A stretch of 25,248 nt of DNA, taken from IMG/VR virus record IMGVR_UViG_3300050821_000499, positions 1 through 25,248 of that record. One strand, written 5' to 3'. Of this stretch, positions 4,763 to 12,954 are shown in pieces (positions within the stretch are counted from its first letter, which is position 1; the number at the start of each line of letters is the position of its first letter). The DNA is from a virus. Both the position numbers and the translations under genes were made by a program. The notes beneath the pieces are model-generated. The model was not told the origin of the DNA and did not search any database. It saw only the letters and a list, made by a program, of their open reading frames with translations.

Positions 4763-5085
4763 GCGCACGCAATCAGGTCGACGGCGGCGCCACGAAGCAA
4801 GTGCTCGACTACCTGGCAGCAAAGCACATTCTCGCATTCCGCATGAATACAGGGATGGCGCGATTTGATGGGCGCTTCGTGAAGTTCGGCGTGAAGGGCA
4901 TGGCGGATATCTTGGCATTCTTCCGCGGATGGAATGGGGAGCCGGTAATTCTGCCCGTCTGGATCGAAACCAAGGCCAAAGATGGGCGCCAGTCTGAGTA
5001 TCAAAAGAGCTTCCAAGCCCTAGTTGAATCGCATGGCCATCGCTACATTATCGCAAGGTCGATCGACGACCTGGGTGAATTATGA
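4759..5085 (+). CDS. VRR-NUC domain nuclease
   Basis: The product has 108 residues, about the length of a stand-alone VRR-NUC domain. The order of elements fits the family: an N-terminal helix (GGATKQVLDYLAAKHI), the GMADILAF segment carrying an active-site Asp (about D50), the WIETKAKDGRQSEYQKSFQ core with the E-x-K catalytic pair (about 69-71), and a C-terminal strand with GHRYIIARS. Such domains cut DNA, in some phages at branches or nicks. It overlaps genes on both sides by ATGA (4759-4762 and 5082-5085) and sits between two DNA methyltransferases. A role in recombination or in telling methylated from unmethylated DNA is possible, but the second idea is speculation. Confidence 0.85.
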   Translation: MSARNQVDGGATKQVLDYLAAKHILAFRMNTGMARFDGRFVKFGVKGMADILAFFRGWNGEPVILPVWIETKAKDGRQSEYQKSFQALVESHGHRYIIARSIDDLGEL

Positions 5086-5690
5086 AGCCTTATTACGAGC
5101 ACGCAGGCATCACGATCTATCACGGTAACTGCCGCTTGTTGCTTCAGGAAATGCCGCAGGTTGATGCCGTGATTACTGATCCTCCATACGGCCTCGGTAT
5201 TGCCTCGGAATTATTCAGGGCAGCACGAAGACGGATGGAGCCGTTAGCTTGGGATGACTCTCCCACAGACGTGGCCTTTCTCCTTCCCGTTGCCCAGCGC
5301 CTCGTTATCTGGGGTGGTAATTATTTCCCACTCCCGCCCTCGCGGGGATGGTTGAGCTGGTATAAGCCAGATTCACCGCCAACAATGGCCGATTTTGAAA
5401 TGGCATGGACGAACCAAGATCGCAACGCCAGACAAATCTCCTATTCAATCGCAGCGACAAATGCGGAGCGCGTCCCACATCCGACGCAAAAGCCCAAAGC
5501 GGTCATGCGGTGGACGATTCAACAGATAGCGCCTGATGCCCAAACGATCCTCGACCCCTTCATGGGCAGCGGCACAACGCTGGTAGCTGCGAAGAACTTA
5601 GGCCGCAAGGCAATCGGCATCGAGATAGAAGAAAAGTACTGCGAAATAGCCGCTAAAAGGCTGTCGCAGGAGGTGTTCGACTTCGCATGA
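5082..5690 (+). CDS. Adenine-N6 / cytosine-N4 DNA methyltransferase
   Basis: The protein has 202 residues. Catalytic motif IV, DPPY (33-36), precedes HPTQKP (about 132-137) and the SAM-binding motif DPFMGSGTT (158-166), the beta-class order of N6/N4 methyltransferases. The C-terminal IGIEIEEKYCEIAAKRL helix is typical of the fold. The region between catalytic and SAM motifs is short, with little room for a target-recognition domain, so its sequence preference may be relaxed or set by the core. It is coupled to the VRR-NUC gene by ATGA. Protection from restriction or epigenetic timing are the likely roles; DPPY alone does not separate adenine from cytosine-N4 activity. Confidence 0.9.
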   Translation: MKPYYEHAGITIYHGNCRLLLQEMPQVDAVITDPPYGLGIASELFRAARRRMEPLAWDDSPTDVAFLLPVAQRLVIWGGNYFPLPPSRGWLSWYKPDSPPTMADFEMAWTNQDRNARQISYSIAATNAERVPHPTQKPKAVMRWTIQQIAPDAQTILDPFMGSGTTLVAAKNLGRKAIGIEIEEKYCEIAAKRLSQEVFDFA

Positions 5691-7032: not shown

Positions 7033-7328
7033 CCCCGTTGAAGGTTGGCTCTAAGTACATCCAGACAGAAGAAGAGCAGCAGTATCATCGGGAGCTGGCA
7101 TGGCGTCTCCGGCAAGCGCGGATAGCGAGAGGTCTAAGCCGACGCGACTTAGAAGCTATGACAGGAATACACCGAAACTCGATTGCCAACCTCGAAAACG
7201 GCTGTTCGGTGCGGCATTGGACGGTAATTCGCATCCGGCAAGCGCTAAAGGATGCGCCCGTCACGAAAGTTGACACAACATCTTGTGCAACTGACGCATT
7301 TACTGTTGACGAGAAAGCCCGCCTATAG
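7029..7328 (+). CDS. XRE-family helix-turn-helix transcriptional regulator
   Basis: The product has 99 residues. GTG 7029 is the chosen start because it overlaps the preceding stop (GTGA); an ORF extending back to 6975 would overlap the previous gene. Residues ~23-75 form a Cro/CI-type HTH_3 domain: LAWRLRQARIARGLSRRDLE, then AMTGIHRNSIANLENG, where the SIANLENG-type helix is the usual recognition segment. The C-terminal ~20 residues are short and lack an oligomerisation or cleavage domain, so it is Cro-sized rather than CI-sized. It is the last gene of the early cluster and precedes a structured gene-free gap, a sensible place for a switch protein. Its operator is not identified. Confidence 0.8.
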   Translation: MTPLKVGSKYIQTEEEQQYHRELAWRLRQARIARGLSRRDLEAMTGIHRNSIANLENGCSVRHWTVIRIRQALKDAPVTKVDTTSCATDAFTVDEKARL

Positions 7329-7340
7329 CATTCTGCATCT

Positions 7341-7399
7341 GAGATACCCCCAAATCTCCGGGATCGTTTGCAGGCGCGATCATCCCCTACGCAGTGGGG
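7341..7399 (+). ncRNA. Hairpin series in the gap after the XRE gene
   Basis: Three consecutive stem-loops can be drawn: GAGAT (7341-7345) with ATCTC (7354-7358); GATCG (7362-7366) with CGATC (7377-7381); and CCCC (7384-7387) with GGGG (7396-7399). None is followed by a U-tract. Together with the element that follows at 7400, they make most of the 234-nt gene-free gap look structured at the RNA level. Stability has not been calculated. Confidence 0.4.
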
Positions 7400-7543
7400 C
7401 GCGGCATACCCTAAGTCGCGGCGTCTTCAAAAGTTTGCAGCAGCGGGTTTCACCGGGTGCGAGCAGCCGACCTGAAATCGGTTGAAGCACGAGAACAACT
7501 CGCAATTTACGTCACCGCCTAGAGCGTGATTATGCTGCTGCAA
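7400..7543 (+). ncRNA. Structured element A, first copy of a duplicated RNA/leader module
   Basis: A 6-bp hairpin CGCGGC/GTCGCG (7400-7405 with 7415-7420, one G-U) is followed by CGTCTT and then by a 10-bp perfect stem, TTGCAGCAGC (7435-7444) with GCTGCTGCAA (7534-7543). Inside that stem lie GTTTCACC (7447-7454), a possible 7-bp hairpin CAGCCGA/TCGGTTG (7464-7470 with 7478-7484) and GCCTAG (7517-7522). The same ordered blocks recur at 9796-9920, with an A-T pair of the long stem replaced by G-C. The stem ends 19 nt before ATG 7563, which lacks a clear Shine-Dalgarno. It could be a cis-acting leader, an antitermination element or a stand-alone small RNA. I recognise no known RNA family. Confidence 0.6.
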
Positions 7544-7562
7544 TTAGTTTGGCCGTCAGATA

Positions 7563-7880
7563 ATGCGTACCCAAAACATACAGTTACAGAATGCAGACTG
7601 CTCGCACTGCCGCTGGATCAGCATGCCCGAGGCTGCGCGCCTTGAGCAGCAAAAGGACGCCTTTCGTGTTACGCGCCTGAAGGCCAAGAGAACCATTTAT
7701 AGGCTTGCATGGTATCCCGAAGCCTCCGACTCCCCCGAAAGCCCCGCGCACATTACGCTGGGCGACACATATCGCGTTGCCGGCGTATTGCCGATGAATG
7801 AGATCCAGCGCGAACGGCTGATTGGCTTGAACCTAATCCCAGTTCCCCCAGAACTGCTAGCCGCGGAATGCCAAGTCTAG
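7563..7880 (+). CDS. Hypothetical protein downstream of element A
   Basis: The product has 105 residues. It holds a single CxxC pair (CSHC, about residues 13-16) and a helical segment, PEAARLEQQKDAFRVTRLKA, in the first half. The second half is beta-like with a proline-rich end. ATG 7563 is the only plausible early start but has no good Shine-Dalgarno; the upstream 19 nt separate it from the closing stem of element A, so initiation may depend on that structure. No family is recognised. It opens the second small gene cluster. Confidence 0.65.
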   Translation: MRTQNIQLQNADCSHCRWISMPEAARLEQQKDAFRVTRLKAKRTIYRLAWYPEASDSPESPAHITLGDTYRVAGVLPMNEIQRERLIGLNLIPVPPELLAAECQV

Positions 7881-7893
7881 ACGAGATACCGCG

Positions 7894-8913
7894 ATGGGCC
7901 TGAAAGGCGATCGTGCAAGCAACAGGATGCCGGTTGAAATAGAGCGGCAAATCCTAGAGCTGGTCGTAAGCGGCAAGTCGCATCCAGAAATAGCAGACCT
8001 CCTGGGGGTCAACAAGAATACGATCTGGCGTGTAGTGAAACGCGCAAAGACAGATCCATACCTGCAGCCATCGAAGAAGATTGGCGAGTTCAACTGGCGC
8101 GAGGTTATCCCCCACGTTGAGGGAATGCAGGGCGTCAAGAAGAAAGCATCATGGTCACAAGAACGCGCAGAGATAGCGCTTGGTGACGGTAAGCGCCCGG
8201 TAATCTTGGTTGGCTTCGGCGATCAGCACATCGGCGCCTATGGCTGCAATTACCGATCGTTCCAAGAGATTACCGACGAGATTCTAGCCACGCCGAATCT
8301 GTACGTTGCCCTGATGGGCGACTATCTTGAGATGGCGATTCGTCTCCGCGGCGTGCTTGAGGTTACCGCGCAAGTTCTGACACCGGAGATGCAGGAAGCA
8401 TTTCTCGAATCCTGGCTCAAAGAGATTCAGCCGAAAGTCGCATTCGCCACCTGGGACAACCACGGCATCATGCGGCAAGAGAATCAGTCAGGCGTATCCA
8501 GCCTAAAGAACCTGCTTAGCCGCAACGTGCATTATTTCAACGGCATAGGGCACGCTGACCTAAAGATTGGCTCTGAGATTTACAAGTCGGCCGCATCGCA
8601 CAAGTTCCGCGGCAGCTCGATGTACAACCGCACCCATGCTCAAGGCCGATATATCCGCATGGAAGCTGTCGACCGCGAGCTGGTACTGATGGGTGATATT
8701 CACACCTGGGGATTCTCGCAGTACGCCGAGGGCGGAATTGAGCGCACCTGCATCACCGGCGGCACGCTGCACGAAAACTCGGGCTATGCAAAGCGGTTCT
8801 TTAGCCTGCACGACTCGCCGTATTATCCATGCGCAGTTCTGCATCACGACAGGCACGAAATCGTGCCATTCAAGACCGTGCGACAAGCGCGGCAGTATTT
8901 AGGCCTGAAATGA
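7894..8913 (+). CDS. HTH-metallophosphoesterase fusion
   Basis: The protein has 339 residues. Residues ~12-52 form a helix-turn-helix of the resolvase/Hin type (QILELVVSGKSHPEIADLLG, then VNKNTIWRVVKRA). The rest is a calcineurin-like metallophosphoesterase with GFGDQHIG (D110, H112), MGDYLEM (D143), WDNHG (N189, H190), SHKF (H236) and MGDIHTWG (D268, H270). These match the five metal-binding blocks in order, as in SbcD/Mre11-type nucleases, except that the last block reads GDxH instead of the usual GHxH. A DNA-targeted nuclease or phosphatase is the natural reading. ATG 7894 has no strong ribosome site; ATG 7927, giving MPVEIERQ, is an alternative. Confidence 0.8.
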   Translation: MGLKGDRASNRMPVEIERQILELVVSGKSHPEIADLLGVNKNTIWRVVKRAKTDPYLQPSKKIGEFNWREVIPHVEGMQGVKKKASWSQERAEIALGDGKRPVILVGFGDQHIGAYGCNYRSFQEITDEILATPNLYVALMGDYLEMAIRLRGVLEVTAQVLTPEMQEAFLESWLKEIQPKVAFATWDNHGIMRQENQSGVSSLKNLLSRNVHYFNGIGHADLKIGSEIYKSAASHKFRGSSMYNRTHAQGRYIRMEAVDRELVLMGDIHTWGFSQYAEGGIERTCITGGTLHENSGYAKRFFSLHDSPYYPCAVLHHDRHEIVPFKTVRQARQYLGLK

Positions 8914-8953
8914 CAAGCTATACATTGCAATTCTGCCTCGGGATGACAAGCTA
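8911..8953 (+). repeat. Two copies of TGACAAGCTA flanking an intergenic spacer
   Basis: The 10-mer TGACAAGCTA occurs at 8911-8920, where its TGA is the stop codon of the phosphoesterase gene, and again at 8944-8953, just before the next ATG at 8957. A third exact copy lies at 9565-9574, across the stop of the gene ending at 9575. The spacing of the first two is 33 bp. They may be protein-binding sites or traces of a small duplication. No promoter can be assigned to them. Confidence 0.5.
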
Positions 8954-8956
8954 AAG

Positions 8957-9190
8957 ATGGCGATCGATACGTGGATTGAGGCGATATGGCATGGCCAGGA
9001 ATCTCCGAAGACGACGGTGACGAGGAATGGGGATTCGATGGAGATTGGCTTGGCTGGCGGCCATTACAAGATCGTGTTGAGTCGCGGCCAGCGGGAATGG
9101 AAGAGCGAAGACGGCTACAGCGGCCGGATCGATCCGAACACGGTAGCTTGGGCGCTCGTGGATAGCGTTCTAGGCGGGATGGATAAATGA
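8957..9190 (+). CDS. Hypothetical protein, 77 residues
   Basis: A compact protein with a tryptophan-containing N-terminal helix (MAIDTWIEAIWHGQ) and beta-like strands after it (VTRNGDSMEIGLAGGHYKIV). No cysteines or membrane segment are present. The ATG follows the second TGACAAGCTA repeat, and the only upstream purine run is a weak AAAG. The stop overlaps the next start (ATGA, 9187-9190). No family is recognised. Confidence 0.6.
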   Translation: MAIDTWIEAIWHGQESPKTTVTRNGDSMEIGLAGGHYKIVLSRGQREWKSEDGYSGRIDPNTVAWALVDSVLGGMDK

Positions 9191-9402
9191 GCGAACTGCT
9201 GGGCGCTAGGGCATACGAAGCGCTATTTGAAGGTAATGGCGATTCAGTAATGACGCGCCTGAAGCTCGCGGAGCGGACGATCGAGCAGCACGAGAAGACT
9301 ATGGAGTTTTGGCGCGGCGTATCCACAAAGCTGCTAGTTGCCTCACTCGCCTCATTCTTGGGCTCACTGGCCCATATCCTCTTCCAAGTCTTGAAGCATT
9401 AG
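9187..9402 (+). CDS. Small protein with C-terminal membrane helix
   Basis: The product has 71 residues. The N-terminal ~48 residues are soluble and helical (a stretch around MTRLKLAERTIEQHEKTMEF has coiled-coil character). Residues ~49-69 (LLVASLASFLGSLAHILFQV) form a single hydrophobic segment. This topology, soluble coil then one membrane helix, recalls small phage anchor or holin-like proteins, but one helix and no lysis neighbours are not enough to call it a holin. It is coupled to the preceding gene by ATGA. Confidence 0.65.
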   Translation: MSELLGARAYEALFEGNGDSVMTRLKLAERTIEQHEKTMEFWRGVSTKLLVASLASFLGSLAHILFQVLKH

Positions 9403-9404
9403 CA

Positions 9405-9575
9405 ATGACGAACTGCCGCAACGTGCCAATTAGAAGGCCGGATCTTGAACCAGCGACACTTGAAGAGCTGATCGAAGCCCACAAATTCCTGTGCACTTCG
9501 CTTGAAGAATTGGCAAATCTCGTTAGGGAATTAGCCCTGCTGATTGTGGAAGACGGCAAGGAATTGACAAGCTAG
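9405..9575 (+). CDS. Small hypothetical helical protein
   Basis: The product has 56 residues. ATG 9405 comes 2 nt after the previous stop; a longer in-frame ORF from 9309 would overlap the preceding gene completely and is not favoured. The sequence is acidic and helical (TLEELIEAHKFLCTSLEELA then LVRELALLIVEDGKEL) with regularly spaced leucines, suggesting a two-helix hairpin. The stop lies within the third TGACAAGCTA repeat and at the foot of a perfect hairpin (9575-9593). No function is known. Confidence 0.55.
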   Translation: MTNCRNVPIRRPDLEPATLEELIEAHKFLCTSLEELANLVRELALLIVEDGKELTS

Positions 9576-9593
9576 TCGTAGTCAAACTACGAC
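9575..9593 (+). terminator. Perfect 8-bp hairpin at the end of the small cluster
   Basis: GTCGTAGT (9575-9582) pairs perfectly with ACTACGAC (9586-9593) around a CAA loop. The stem starts on the last base of the preceding stop codon. No U-tract follows, so it is not a standard intrinsic terminator; it could protect the mRNA 3' end or be the first stem of the structured gap. It is typed as a terminator only for its position. Confidence 0.35.
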
Positions 9594-9620
9594 CTGGCGA
9601 CAAGATTTAAGTTAACCAAG

Positions 9621-9693
9621 CTGCGCGGCGGTTCCCAGTGCGCTCATACCTGAGCCGGACACCCGCCAAAACTGACGAGCAATCGCCGCGCGG
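9621..9693 (+). ncRNA. Candidate structured RNA with 13-bp closing stem
   Basis: Bases 9621-9633 (CTGCGCGGCGGTT) pair with 9681-9693 (AATCGCCGCGCGG) over 13 bp with two G-U pairs. The enclosed 47 nt can form GCTCA/TGAGC (9642-9646 with 9651-9655) and CGG/CCG (9656-9658 with 9663-9665), giving a branched fold. A further stem GCCGC/GCGGC (9700-9704 with 9715-9719) follows. The gap holds no convincing gene and ends in an intrinsic terminator at 9796-9821, so 9576-9821 may be a terminated small RNA. No known RNA class is recognised. Confidence 0.5.
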
Positions 9694-9795
9694 AAACATG
9701 CCGCAAGAAGCCGGGCGGCTGTGAAAAGTACTTCGTTGCTGGTGGAGGCGCGAATACCGGCTCCAAGCTTCGGCAGAGCGAACGTCACTTGCTCG

Positions 9796-9821
9796 CGGGG
9801 CCTAATAAGCCCCGTCTTTTT
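9796..9821 (+). terminator. Intrinsic terminator in the gap before the packaging genes
   Basis: CGGGGC (9796-9801) pairs with GCCCCG (9809-9814) around a 7-nt CTAATAA loop and is followed by TCTTTTT (9815-9821). This is a good Rho-independent terminator on the + strand. It would close transcription of the 7563-9575 cluster and the structured RNA, separating it from the packaging genes. It also forms the first hairpin of duplicated element B. Confidence 0.8.
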
Positions 9822-9920
9822 CAAGTTTGCAGCGGCAGCCTGGAGTTGCACCAAAGCGTTGCGGCGTTGATCGGTGCGGCAGAGTAAAGGGCCTAGGCTT
9901 ACCTGTCGCGGCCGCTGCAA
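9796..9920 (+). ncRNA. Structured element B, second copy of the duplicated RNA/leader module
   Basis: After the 6-bp terminator hairpin come a CGTCTTTTTCAA linker and a perfect 10-bp stem, TTGCAGCGGC (9827-9836) with GCCGCTGCAA (9911-9920). Within it are AGCCT/AGGCT (9837-9841 with 9895-9899) and GCACC/GGTGC (9848-9852 with 9873-9877). The blocks GTTGCACC (9845-9852), TCGGT (9871-9875) and GCCTAG (9891-9896) match element A in order. The stem ends 19 nt before ATG 9940, exactly as element A does before ATG 7563. The terminator is stronger here than in copy A. Leader regulation or antitermination of the packaging operon is possible but not shown. Confidence 0.6.
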
Positions 9921-9939
9921 TTCGCGCATTACCTGAAAC

Positions 9940-10134
9940 ATGAACGACGACAAGAAAACAATCTCGGGTTATTGGCCTCACGCAATACCTGAGAAAGAAA
10001 AGATTTACGACTTACAGCCTTATCCCCCAGAAATAAGCGTGGAGCAGATACTCAATGATCTGGCTAATCCTCATCTACGGCTCAATTGCTGCACTGACGC
10101 TGGGATTGTTGTGGCTGCAGAAGCAAGTGAATGA
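9940..10134 (+). CDS. Small hypothetical protein downstream of element B
   Basis: The product has 64 residues, with a polar, Pro- and Tyr-rich first half (ISGYWPHAIPEKEKIYDLQP) and a short Cys-Cys-containing end. There is no membrane segment or recognised motif. The ATG lacks a clear Shine-Dalgarno and lies 19 nt after the closing stem of element B. A second ORF (10055-10213) overlaps its last 80 nt in another frame. It may be real or may mainly serve to bring ribosomes to that overlapping gene. Confidence 0.5.
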   Translation: MNDDKKTISGYWPHAIPEKEKIYDLQPYPPEISVEQILNDLANPHLRLNCCTDAGIVVAAEASE

Positions 10135-10213
10135 GTTGCACGCCACAGTCATTACTCTGCTGGGTATCTGTATCGAATTAAAGGCTAACGAGACAAATGG
10201 GAAGACCAAGTGA
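10055..10213 (+). CDS. Overlapping small membrane protein
   Basis: ATG 10055 opens a 52-residue frame to TGA 10211-10213, overlapping the preceding gene by 80 nt and the small terminase gene by 17 nt. GGAG (10041-10044) lies 10 nt upstream. Residues 1-20 (MIWLILIYGSIAALTLGLLW) are strongly hydrophobic, and a helical tail (LQKQVNELHATVITLLGICI) follows, so it looks like a membrane-anchored short coil. The overlap with flanking genes on both sides is in keeping with this genome. A lysis-related role is conceivable but unsupported. Confidence 0.55.
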   Translation: MIWLILIYGSIAALTLGLLWLQKQVNELHATVITLLGICIELKANETNGKTK

Positions 10214-10637
10214 CTTCAAACCAGAATACGTAGAACAGGCGCGAAAGCTCTGTCTTCTCGGCGCAACTGACCAGCAAATAGCTGATTTCTTTGAAGTTAA
10301 TGTCGCAACTATCTATCGCTGGAAGATTACTCAGAGCAAGTTTTGCGAGGCCCTAAAGGTTGGCAAGTCGGAACCTGATCAACAGGTTGAACGCTCGCTT
10401 TTGAATCGCGCACTTGGTTACGAGCATGATGCGGTCAAGATCTTCTGCTCGAAAGATGGCGATGTTACGCAGGTTCCGTATCGCGAGATTGTCCCGCCAG
10501 ATGTAACGGCATGCATCTTCTGGCTCAAGAATAGAAAGCCTGAGGAATGGCGAGACAAACAGGACCTGGGATTCGGGGGCTCAGTCGATCTAGCGAAACT
10601 GCTAGCAGCAGCTCGGAAGCGTCTCGAAGAGAAGTAG
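10197..10637 (+). CDS. terS: Terminase small subunit
   Basis: The protein has 146 residues. The N-terminal MGRPSDFKPEYVEQARKLCL followed by LGATDQQIADFFEVNVATIYRWK is a homeodomain-like helix-turn-helix (about 5-45) typical of DNA-recognising small terminases. The central SLLNRALGYEHDAVKIF (about 67-83) and PDVTACIFWLKNRKPEEWRD (about 101-120) segments are family hallmarks. It would bind the packaging site and deliver DNA to the large subunit encoded next. The ATG lies inside the end of the previous small gene. Length is typical and the domain is intact. Confidence 0.92.
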   Translation: MGRPSDFKPEYVEQARKLCLLGATDQQIADFFEVNVATIYRWKITQSKFCEALKVGKSEPDQQVERSLLNRALGYEHDAVKIFCSKDGDVTQVPYREIVPPDVTACIFWLKNRKPEEWRDKQDLGFGGSVDLAKLLAAARKRLEEK

Positions 10638-12193
10638 CAGAAGTCATTGCGGGGCTAGTGTCTGATCCGCTCGGCTTTGCGCGCTTTGCTTATCCATGGG
10701 GCGAAGCTGGACCGCTCGAGCATTACGCCGGCCTGAGGGTTTGGCAAGCTGACATCCTTGGCGTAATCCGCGAGCATCTGCAAGGCTCGGATCGCTTTGA
10801 GCCGCTACGCATTGCTGTAGCGTCTGGCCATGGTATTGGCAAGACGGCGCTGATTGGCATTATCGCCAACTGGGCAATGTCGACTTGCGATGACTGCCGC
10901 GTAATGATCACGGCAAACACTGAAGACCAGCTCAGCACGAAGACCTGGCCCGAAGTAAGCAAGTGGTTTGGGCTGAGCATCAACAACGATTGGTGGGATG
11001 CGGGAACGACGCGCATCACATCGAAGCAGCGCGGGCATGAGAAGACTTGGCGCCTCGATCGCGTTACGTGGTCCGAGAACAACACAGAAGCGTTTCAAGG
11101 CCTGCACAACCTCGGTAAACGCATTGTCGTCATCTTCGACGAGGGCTCGGCAATCCCCAAAACCATTTGGGATGTAGCAGAAGGCGCGCTGACAGACGAA
11201 GGCACAGAGATTATCTTCGTGGTCTTCGGCAATCCAACGCAGAACGGCACACCGTTTGCCGCCTGCTTTGGCGCGATGAAGCATCGCTGGGTGACGCGGC
11301 ATATCGATGCGCGAACCGTGCCGGGAACGAATAAGGCGCAGATAGATAAGTGGATTGAGGACTTTGGAGAGGATAGCGACTTTGTCCGCGTCCGCGTTCG
11401 CGGCGAGTTTCCCCGGGCGGGCTCGAGTCAGTTCATTGCGCAGGACGTCGTAGCAGCCGCAAGAAAGCGCCAGGCTGAAGCGTCAGGCTACAAGATTCTG
11501 ACCTGCGATGTAGCGCGGTTTGGCTCAAACCAGACAGTGAGGCTATTAAGGCATGGCCAGGTGGCGCGCGTGCTTGGCCGAATGCGCGGGGCAAGCGTTG
11601 CAGAGACAGCACATCGCGTTGCAGACGACATCATCGAGACTTCGCCGCGTTGTTGCATCATCGATGGCGATGGTATTGGCGGTGGTGTGGTCGATATGCT
11701 GCGAAGCTGGCTGCCAAGGCCGAATCAGCCGCGAAAGGAATGGCCAGACACAAGGCTAGCGAAGTGGTTCAGCAGCAATCCATGGTTCACGCTGCAGGAG
11801 TTTCATGGCGCCGTTCCCCCGGCGGACCCGTTCATGTGGTTCAACAAGCGCGCCGAGGTCTGGGGCCTGATGCAGAAGTGGCTAGTGGATGGCGATATCC
11901 CAGACGAGCCAGAGTTTGAGGCTGACCTGACCGGCATCGAGTATTACCACTCAAACAAGAATCAAATCCAGCTTGAGCGCAAGGAAGAGCTGGAAGCGCG
12001 CGGGCTAGCAAGTCCAGACAATGGCGACGCGCTGGCAATGAGCTTTGCCGCATTCCCCGCAGGCGAGACGCGAGAAGAGAAGACGGTACGCGAGCAGGCG
12101 GCAATTCAAGATCCGATGGAGCTGCACTTCGCAAGGCTTAGGGAAACACAGCGGCGAGAGAAGCTGAAGCAGCCGGGAAATTACTGGGAGTAG
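10547..12193 (+). CDS. terL: Terminase large subunit (packaging ATPase-nuclease)
   Basis: The protein has 548 residues. Walker A is GHGIGKTA (94-101), Walker B with the catalytic glutamate is RIVVIFDEG (192-200), and a coupling motif reads FGNPTQ (228-233). The C-terminal RNase H-like nuclease has D321 in TCDVARFG, D373 in IIDGDGIGGG and a final DNGDALAMSF (about 505-514), so all expected metal-binding acidic residues are present. It pumps DNA into the prohead and cuts at the end. The start at ATG 10547 overlaps the small-subunit gene by 91 nt; the next ordinary in-frame start, GTG 10658, would cut off part of the conserved N-terminus. The true start may lie between if an unusual codon is used. 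Confidence 0.95.
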   Translation: MARQTGPGIRGLSRSSETASSSSEASRREVAEVIAGLVSDPLGFARFAYPWGEAGPLEHYAGLRVWQADILGVIREHLQGSDRFEPLRIAVASGHGIGKTALIGIIANWAMSTCDDCRVMITANTEDQLSTKTWPEVSKWFGLSINNDWWDAGTTRITSKQRGHEKTWRLDRVTWSENNTEAFQGLHNLGKRIVVIFDEGSAIPKTIWDVAEGALTDEGTEIIFVVFGNPTQNGTPFAACFGAMKHRWVTRHIDARTVPGTNKAQIDKWIEDFGEDSDFVRVRVRGEFPRAGSSQFIAQDVVAAARKRQAEASGYKILTCDVARFGSNQTVRLLRHGQVARVLGRMRGASVAETAHRVADDIIETSPRCCIIDGDGIGGGVVDMLRSWLPRPNQPRKEWPDTRLAKWFSSNPWFTLQEFHGAVPPADPFMWFNKRAEVWGLMQKWLVDGDIPDEPEFEADLTGIEYYHSNKNQIQLERKEELEARGLASPDNGDALAMSFAAFPAGETREEKTVREQAAIQDPMELHFARLRETQRREKLKQPGNYWE

Positions 12194-12357: not shown

Positions 12358-12595
12358 CGACCTCCGCGGACTACTGCGAAAGCTGATCGGATGGGACGAG
12401 CCTAGGCCGATTGATCCACTCATTCTCAACACTTTCAAGGCGATACAGGAAAAGCTCGCTGAGCTTGAAGCCAAAGTCGAGAGCCAGAAGAATCGCGGCC
12501 GCGACAAGGCGGGCGCGCCCATTGTGATCACAGATTGGGAAACGATTCAGGCGCATTACGCCAGCAATCCAGACAACTTTAAGGAGCAAAACTAA
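12350..12595 (+). CDS. Hypothetical protein, 81 residues
   Basis: The gene begins 8 nt before the end of the previous ORF. The first half is hydrophobic and helical (MNNDLRGLLRKLIGWDEP), the middle holds a predicted coiled segment (TFKAIQEKLAELEAKVESQ), and a polar end follows. Its place between terminase and portal genes suggests a packaging or connector accessory, but no motif confirms this. The stop TAA shares its last base with the ATG of the histidine-rich gene. Confidence 0.65.
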   Translation: MNNDLRGLLRKLIGWDEPRPIDPLILNTFKAIQEKLAELEAKVESQKNRGRDKAGAPIVITDWETIQAHYASNPDNFKEQN

Positions 12596-12954
12596 TGTCG
12601 ACAGCAGGATACAAGATGCATTGGGGCTCAGGCTATCGGAGCAAGAAAGAGCCCGACGAGACTGCGGGCCCAGAACCTGAGGTTCATCAGGAAGACCCGG
12701 CCGACGCTGGCCATGATGGCCACGAAGAGATTCACGAGCACTTGGCTTCGATGCACGCGGCCACTGGCCATGCTCATAGCCACGTCGAGCACCACGGCGA
12801 CGGTAAGCACACAAGCTATCACGTCGACGACGCCGGTCAAGTCAGCGGGCCTCACGAGCATGGCAGCCTTGAAGAACTACACTCGCACATGAGTTCGCTG
12901 CACGGCGAAGGTGAAATGGCGGATCAGGGTATGGACGAGCGGGAGGCAATGTGA
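12595..12954 (+). CDS. Histidine-rich protein between terminase and portal
   Basis: The product has 119 residues, 19 of them histidine, plus many Asp and Glu, and one cannot miss the metal-binding composition. Two similar segments, EEIHEHLASMHAATGHAHS (about 44-62) and EELHSHMSSLHGEGE (about 92-106), share an ExxHxHxxSxH pattern, suggesting an internal duplication. AAGGAG (12581-12586) gives a good ribosome site. Zinc, nickel or iron binding is inferred only from composition. It might also be a disordered, pH-sensitive virion or assembly factor. I recognise no named family. Confidence 0.7.
   Translation: MSTAGYKMHWGSGYRSKKEPDETAGPEPEVHQEDPADAGHDGHEEIHEHLASMHAATGHAHSHVEHHGDGKHTSYHVDDAGQVSGPHEHGSLEELHSHMSSLHGEGEMADQGMDEREAM

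Follow-up and report, generated by a model that had tools for sequence, protein, structure and literature searches.

Two structured elements in the intergenic gaps

The window, meaning the whole stretch of 25,248 nucleotides that was analysed (IMG/VR record IMGVR_UViG_3300050821_000499), comes from an uncultivated phage. Two of its intergenic gaps (7329-7562 and 9576-9939) each contain one unit of about 100 bases, whose predicted RNA fold is a branched hairpin. These units, here called elements A and B, have the following parts. L105 is a related phage record described below.

7431..7545, + strand: element A, 115 nt, AAGTTTGCAGCAGC...GCTGCTGCAATT; absent from the orthologous L105 site
7435-7444/7534-7543, + strand: closing stem P1 of element A, a perfect 10-bp inverted repeat
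~7457-7490 and ~7511-7530, + strand: inner hairpins of element A, the second with CTAG in its loop (7519-7522)
9823..9922, + strand: element B (module M2), a three-way junction; 91% identical copy at L105:5006-5104
9827-9836/9911-9920, + strand: closing stem P1 of element B, a perfect 10-bp inverted repeat
9838-9875, + strand: P2 of element B, an arm of the three-way junction
9876-9909, + strand: P3 of element B, with the CUAG apical loop at 9893-9896

The gaps, the blocks that they share and the coordinates given in the original prediction were all correct on recheck. The two 10-bp stems that it claimed are indeed perfect inverted repeats, and the compensatory difference between them, A-T in one and G-C in the other, is real. 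A further IMG/VR record of 4603 nt (L044) is identical throughout to positions 7289-11891 and may be the same phage.

Elements A and B have common ends, AAGTTTGCAGC...GCTGCAATT, and are closed by the same 10-bp stem. The 11-mer AAGTTTGCAGC was found in the window only at 7431 and 9823, even when one mismatch was allowed, and outside the ends only about 60% of the bases are shared. The score of the local alignment between the gaps was equalled in 8 of 2000 dinucleotide shuffles and reached by 14 of 1950 pairs of random segments. Taken alone, an inverted repeat of 10 bp arose in 1.6% and 4.9% of the shuffled sequences; the two gaps carry one each, and it is the same one. Folded at its exact limits, element A had an energy z score of -2.9 and element B a modest -1.3; longer windows gave no significant values (z -0.9 and -0.7).

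Homologues in other phages

We searched for homologues by a pattern scan of viral contigs with AAGTTTGCAGC...GCTGCAATT, and obtained L105 and two more intergenic matches, in L102 and L104. L105 is a 32.7-kb record with the same early gene order as the window, and its positions 5006-5104 are the copy of element B. Most other pattern matches were set aside, as they look like coding sequence and are without further stem pairing.

L102 and L104 come from phages whose proteins resemble those of the window little or not at all, and the closing stem is preserved in both. By our own estimate about three chance matches to the search pattern were expected in the collection. As a null for both we used a relaxed pattern in 397 host genomes, where the 20 matches had stem extensions as expected by chance: 19 of them had at most two further stem pairs and one had four. 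The L104 match has four added Watson-Crick pairs (p ~0.004), occupies an intergenic site within the structural region and shares GTTTGGC 3' of the element with element A; on this evidence it is very probably a family member. L102 has three added pairs (p ~0.02-0.05) and lies with a terminator on one side and a lysis cassette on the other, with GGGCCTGAGCC at the place of GGGCCTAGGCT in B. It is probably a member as judged from the pairing, and could be a chance match to the pattern.

Five copies are thus known (A, B, the L105 copy, L102 and L104), one or two per genome, all intergenic and co-oriented with the flanking genes. Their ends are conserved and their interiors variable: in A, L102 and L104 the interior helices could not be aligned to those of B. 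The gene 3' of the element differs between phages.

Pairing is retained between homologues

Element B and its L105 copy differ by eight substitutions and one indel. All stem substitutions (7/7) retain pairing in a common three-way junction and none breaks it. Two pairs have undergone double changes from G-C to A-U, one in P1 and one in P2, and three pairs are altered via G-U. When substitutions of these kinds were simulated 5000 times, only 10 runs retained pairing as well as observed, 56 had two double changes and 389 reached the shared fold energy. P1 is fully paired in five of the five copies, and its ninth pair, which is G-C, A-U, G-U or U-A, is always paired. Since the seven outer P1 pairs are fixed by the search pattern, they carry no weight for L102 and L104.

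The wobble pairs form on the + strand only, which favours a + strand RNA rather than single-stranded DNA or the other strand. Each of the seven folds computed for the + strand (the five elements and two copies of the module M1, see below) lay below its own shuffle mean. When B was folded alone, its best structure had a P2 unlike that of the shared fold, and the two-sequence pair-shuffle control (136/500) had no power. Therefore, P1 and P3 are firmer than P2. What emerges by comparison is that the closing stem, AAGUUUGCAGC...GCUGCAAUU, is conserved, that it encloses a branched interior, and that the structure forms on the sense strand.

Database and genome searches

The original prediction had described a conserved structured phage RNA of no recognised family. 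This agrees with the compensatory changes through which the homologues retain the stem, and with the Rfam comparison: no family in Rfam 15 matched the whole window at the gathering threshold, or positions 7300-10000 at E values up to 5. In L104 the only Rfam match was a tRNA. Gap B had no blastn match among phage and plasmid records. A covariance model run against 99 terminase-relative loci (1.07 Mb of viral contigs and bacterial genomes) found only L105's own copies, and the M2 core had no match in 85,000 genomes. The nearest terminase in a bacterial genome belongs to an Acidobacteriaceae MAG. In 396 Acidobacteriota genomes there were no pattern matches and one weak model match, which we judged to be chance.

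Several known classes were considered and rejected. A tRNA search of the window was negative, which speaks against a tRNA or tmRNA. A cos or pac site does not suit A, L102 and L104, which do not adjoin a small terminase gene, and an integron attC site lacks its RYYYAAC/GTTRRRY ends. The elements end in AATT with no T run, so neither A nor B is an intrinsic terminator.

Features of the site and features of the module

The remaining features concern the surroundings of the elements.

9795..9822, + strand: intrinsic-terminator-like hairpin with a T tail, directly before B; a feature of the site, not of the module
7354..7432, + strand: left flank of the present/absent site of A, identical to L105 over its 79 bp; contains CGTCTT and the 7400-7420 hairpin
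7572..7660, + strand: right flank of the present/absent site of A, 89 bp identical to L105; 5' part of ORF 7563-7880
9617..9699, + strand: second structured module M1, CAAGCTGCGCGGCGGTT...AATCGCCGCGCGGAAACA, with a 13-bp closing stem and a fold z of ~-3.2

The leading hairpin and CGTCTT had been counted among the parts of the module. However, L105 keeps the 7400-7420 hairpin and CGTCTTCAAAA, including CGTCTT, unchanged although element A is missing there, so both belong to the site. A scan of the window for terminators (GC-rich hairpin, short loop, T run) found only 9795-9815 before B, and in L105 no terminator hairpin precedes the B copy. We found no promoter-like sites on the + strand of either gap.

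The 19-nt spacing between the stem and the next gene was correctly read before ATG 7563 and ATG 9940, but is not conserved: the distance from the stem end to the next start codon is 19 nt for A and for B, ~87 nt for L105 and ~106 nt for L104. On these distances, the value common to A and B is a coincidence. B and its L105 copy are followed by unrelated genes, and a tie to a particular downstream gene is not supported. A gene-specific riboswitch was rejected for the same reason.

The elements behave as cassettes

The 89-bp and 79-bp flanks of element A are the two longest exact matches between the window and L105. Between them lie 139 nt in the window and about 16 nt in L105. At the empty site of L105 the left junction is clean, while the right junction differs (22 nt versus 6 nt, plus two mismatches), and there is no clean target-site duplication at element A. 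Direct repeats AGTTTG are present at both ends of A and of L104. Judging from the two sequences, element A is a recent gain or loss.

In the second gap the order of the modules is exchanged: M1 precedes B in the window and directly follows the B copy in L105. M1 and M2 are each ~91% identical between the two phages, their limits of homology are the stem ends and their surroundings are rearranged, while the TerL genes are only ~65% identical at the DNA level. M1 has one double change between the window and L105. The simple local duplication named earlier as the alternative is a less fitting description than a discrete cassette subject to gain, loss and reordering, given the empty site and the exchanged order.

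M1 contains CUGACGA and GAAA, and a hammerhead ribozyme was considered; the bases of its stem II are used by the closing stem and we rejected it. A third noncoding stretch, M3, is weakly conserved (9731-9782 in the window, 4851-4907 in L105). The orders M1-M3-M2 in the window and M3-M2-M1 in L105 resemble circular permutations, as from a tandem duplication with loss. In L105, positions 4947-5001 hold a 17-nt inverted repeat, TTGATGTATACGTCAAA / TTTGATCCATACATCAA, directly before the B copy at the place of the terminator, a possible operator.

Interpretation and alternatives

We favour, with about even confidence, the reading that A and B represent a previously undescribed family of modular phage RNAs of ~85-115 nt, which would work in cis, stand at transcription-unit boundaries and act on the transcript or the polymerase. 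Since the copies all lie between genes and run in the direction of these, they suit a cis-acting RNA within the transcript. B and L102 follow terminators and would therefore be placed at boundaries of transcription units; together with the lack of promoter-like sites, this favours a leader or intercistronic element. While the downstream polycistronic mRNA is being transcribed, such a unit would fold within the 5' leader or between the cistrons of that mRNA, and its target would be the transcript or the polymerase and no particular gene. Because it would work as a self-contained unit, the element could be gained, lost and reordered. Its most likely role would be to mark and protect the 5' end of the downstream mRNA segment, in processing or stability, and the next possibility would be a put-like modification of RNA polymerase. 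The retained pairing speaks for this reading, as does the ~91% identity of M1 and M2 in phages whose TerL genes have diverged much further. Against it we count that the copies number only five, with L102 possibly a chance match, that the interior helices of three copies do not match those of B, that B folded alone prefers another P2, that the gaps yielded no promoter, and that L105 manages without element A. A broader version, in which self-contained ~100-nt structured RNAs move as minimal cassettes between gene borders as well as between unrelated phages and bring cis-acting control with them, M1 being a second type, is offered tentatively and seems unlikely from the present comparison.

In layout, the nearest parallel is the extended start-associated sequences (ESAS) of Cluster K mycobacteriophages. 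These are phage-specific inverted repeats with a variable spacer before start codons, nearly all in one orientation, at several genes per phage, with one gene family member lacking the site; the 17-bp repeats are tied to the 13-bp GGGATAGGAGCCC at the start codon, and there are many copies per genome (PMC3203893). Our elements likewise have inverted repeats in the intergenic gaps upstream of starts, with arms of 10-11 bp that stand 65-89 nt apart. However, the stems of A and B have 10 bp, there are one or two copies, and the distance to the start codon is not fixed. The defining 13-bp SAS fails here, as GGGATAGGAGCCC had no match in the window with up to two mismatches. The mycobacteriophage mobile elements (MPME) are also small, with inverted ends, and vary in presence at the gene borders of phages that are related, but they are ~440 bp long and carry a 123-residue ORF (PMC4351075). 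The A/B units have ~100 nt, no ORF and covariation of the RNA type. The packaging RNA of phi29 is a three-way junction closed by a terminal helix, which binds the portal and the packaging ATPase. B shares this architecture and precedes the terminase genes; in contrast, Rfam gave no match to it, the window phage has ordinary TerS/TerL genes for a two-subunit terminase, and the other copies are distant from the small terminase gene.

The nearest functional parallel is the put RNA of HK022, ~70 nt with two adjacent stem-loops, which counters termination in cis and needs no protein factor for this (PMC9378689). By this analogy A and B would have the hypothetical antitermination role that the original prediction suggested, as leaders heading the middle and late operons, the nascent RNA modifying RNA polymerase so that terminators are read through. 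Like putL and putR of HK022 (PMC9378689), they are two related structured RNAs near the heads of transcription units in one phage and are not bound to a gene; a long late operon follows B, and the downstream genes are interchangeable. We nevertheless consider this improbable. The family has a single 10-bp stem closing a branched fold of 86-115 nt where put has two adjacent stem-loops, the terminator adjoining B is upstream of it with no promoter seen before B, L105 has the same genes downstream without A, and the L104 copy sits within the structural region.

A possible, though on balance unlikely, explanation is a non-autonomous mobile DNA hairpin whose ends, AAGTTTGCAGC / GCTGCAATT, are nearly palindromic. 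Either an enzyme acting in trans or recombination at the borders of genes would move it, and it would have no regulatory role of its own. The presence and absence of A between identical flanks, the exchanged order of M1 and M2 with homology ending at the stems, the conserved ends around variable interiors, the AGTTTG repeats and the probable membership of L102 and L104 despite their slight or absent protein similarity would all suit it. However, the copies are always co-oriented with genes, and the wobble pairs, like the compensatory changes of the interior, are a sign of selection on the RNA. There is no clean target-site duplication, no enzyme was found, and the element has only one or two copies per genome and is absent from the host genomes searched. 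Still less probable is an independent small RNA or trans-acting decoy encoded in the gaps. Its self-contained fold, variable order and neighbours, and the irrelevance of the downstream gene agree with that, yet a trans-acting RNA would need no co-orientation with genes, and no promoter or terminator of its own was recognisable around the element. The idea that the likeness is due to chance, or to a local duplication that has no function, could draw on the ~60% identity of A and B outside the ends and on the modest fold z of B alone. We regard it as very improbable: the conservation and compensatory changes in L105 already disfavour it, as do the further members and the shuffle tests.

Structured RNA is poorly known in the phages that infect uncultivated soil bacteria. 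An RNA element shared by mostly unrelated phages, independent of the gene and exchanged whole, would reveal how phages trade regulatory parts at module borders, and the A/B family would supply a defined motif with which viral metagenomes could be searched by covariance.

Neighbouring genes

Histidine-rich proteins without a known family are encoded near the structural genes in the window (12595-12954) and in L104 (7060-7518). The gene at 7563-7880 differs from its L105 counterpart (ATG near 2360) by 41 bases, 32 of them at third positions, with only three amino-acid changes. Its product is an unusually constrained small protein to which no family was assigned. The frame of this gene is open upstream in L105, from a TTG (2288-2360); in the window (7368-7562) element A puts a TGA into that upstream frame. 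The next gene, 7894-8913, encodes a phosphoesterase with an N-terminal helix-turn-helix, and at the same place L105 (2888-4161) has a different metallophosphoesterase and an apparent HNH nuclease.
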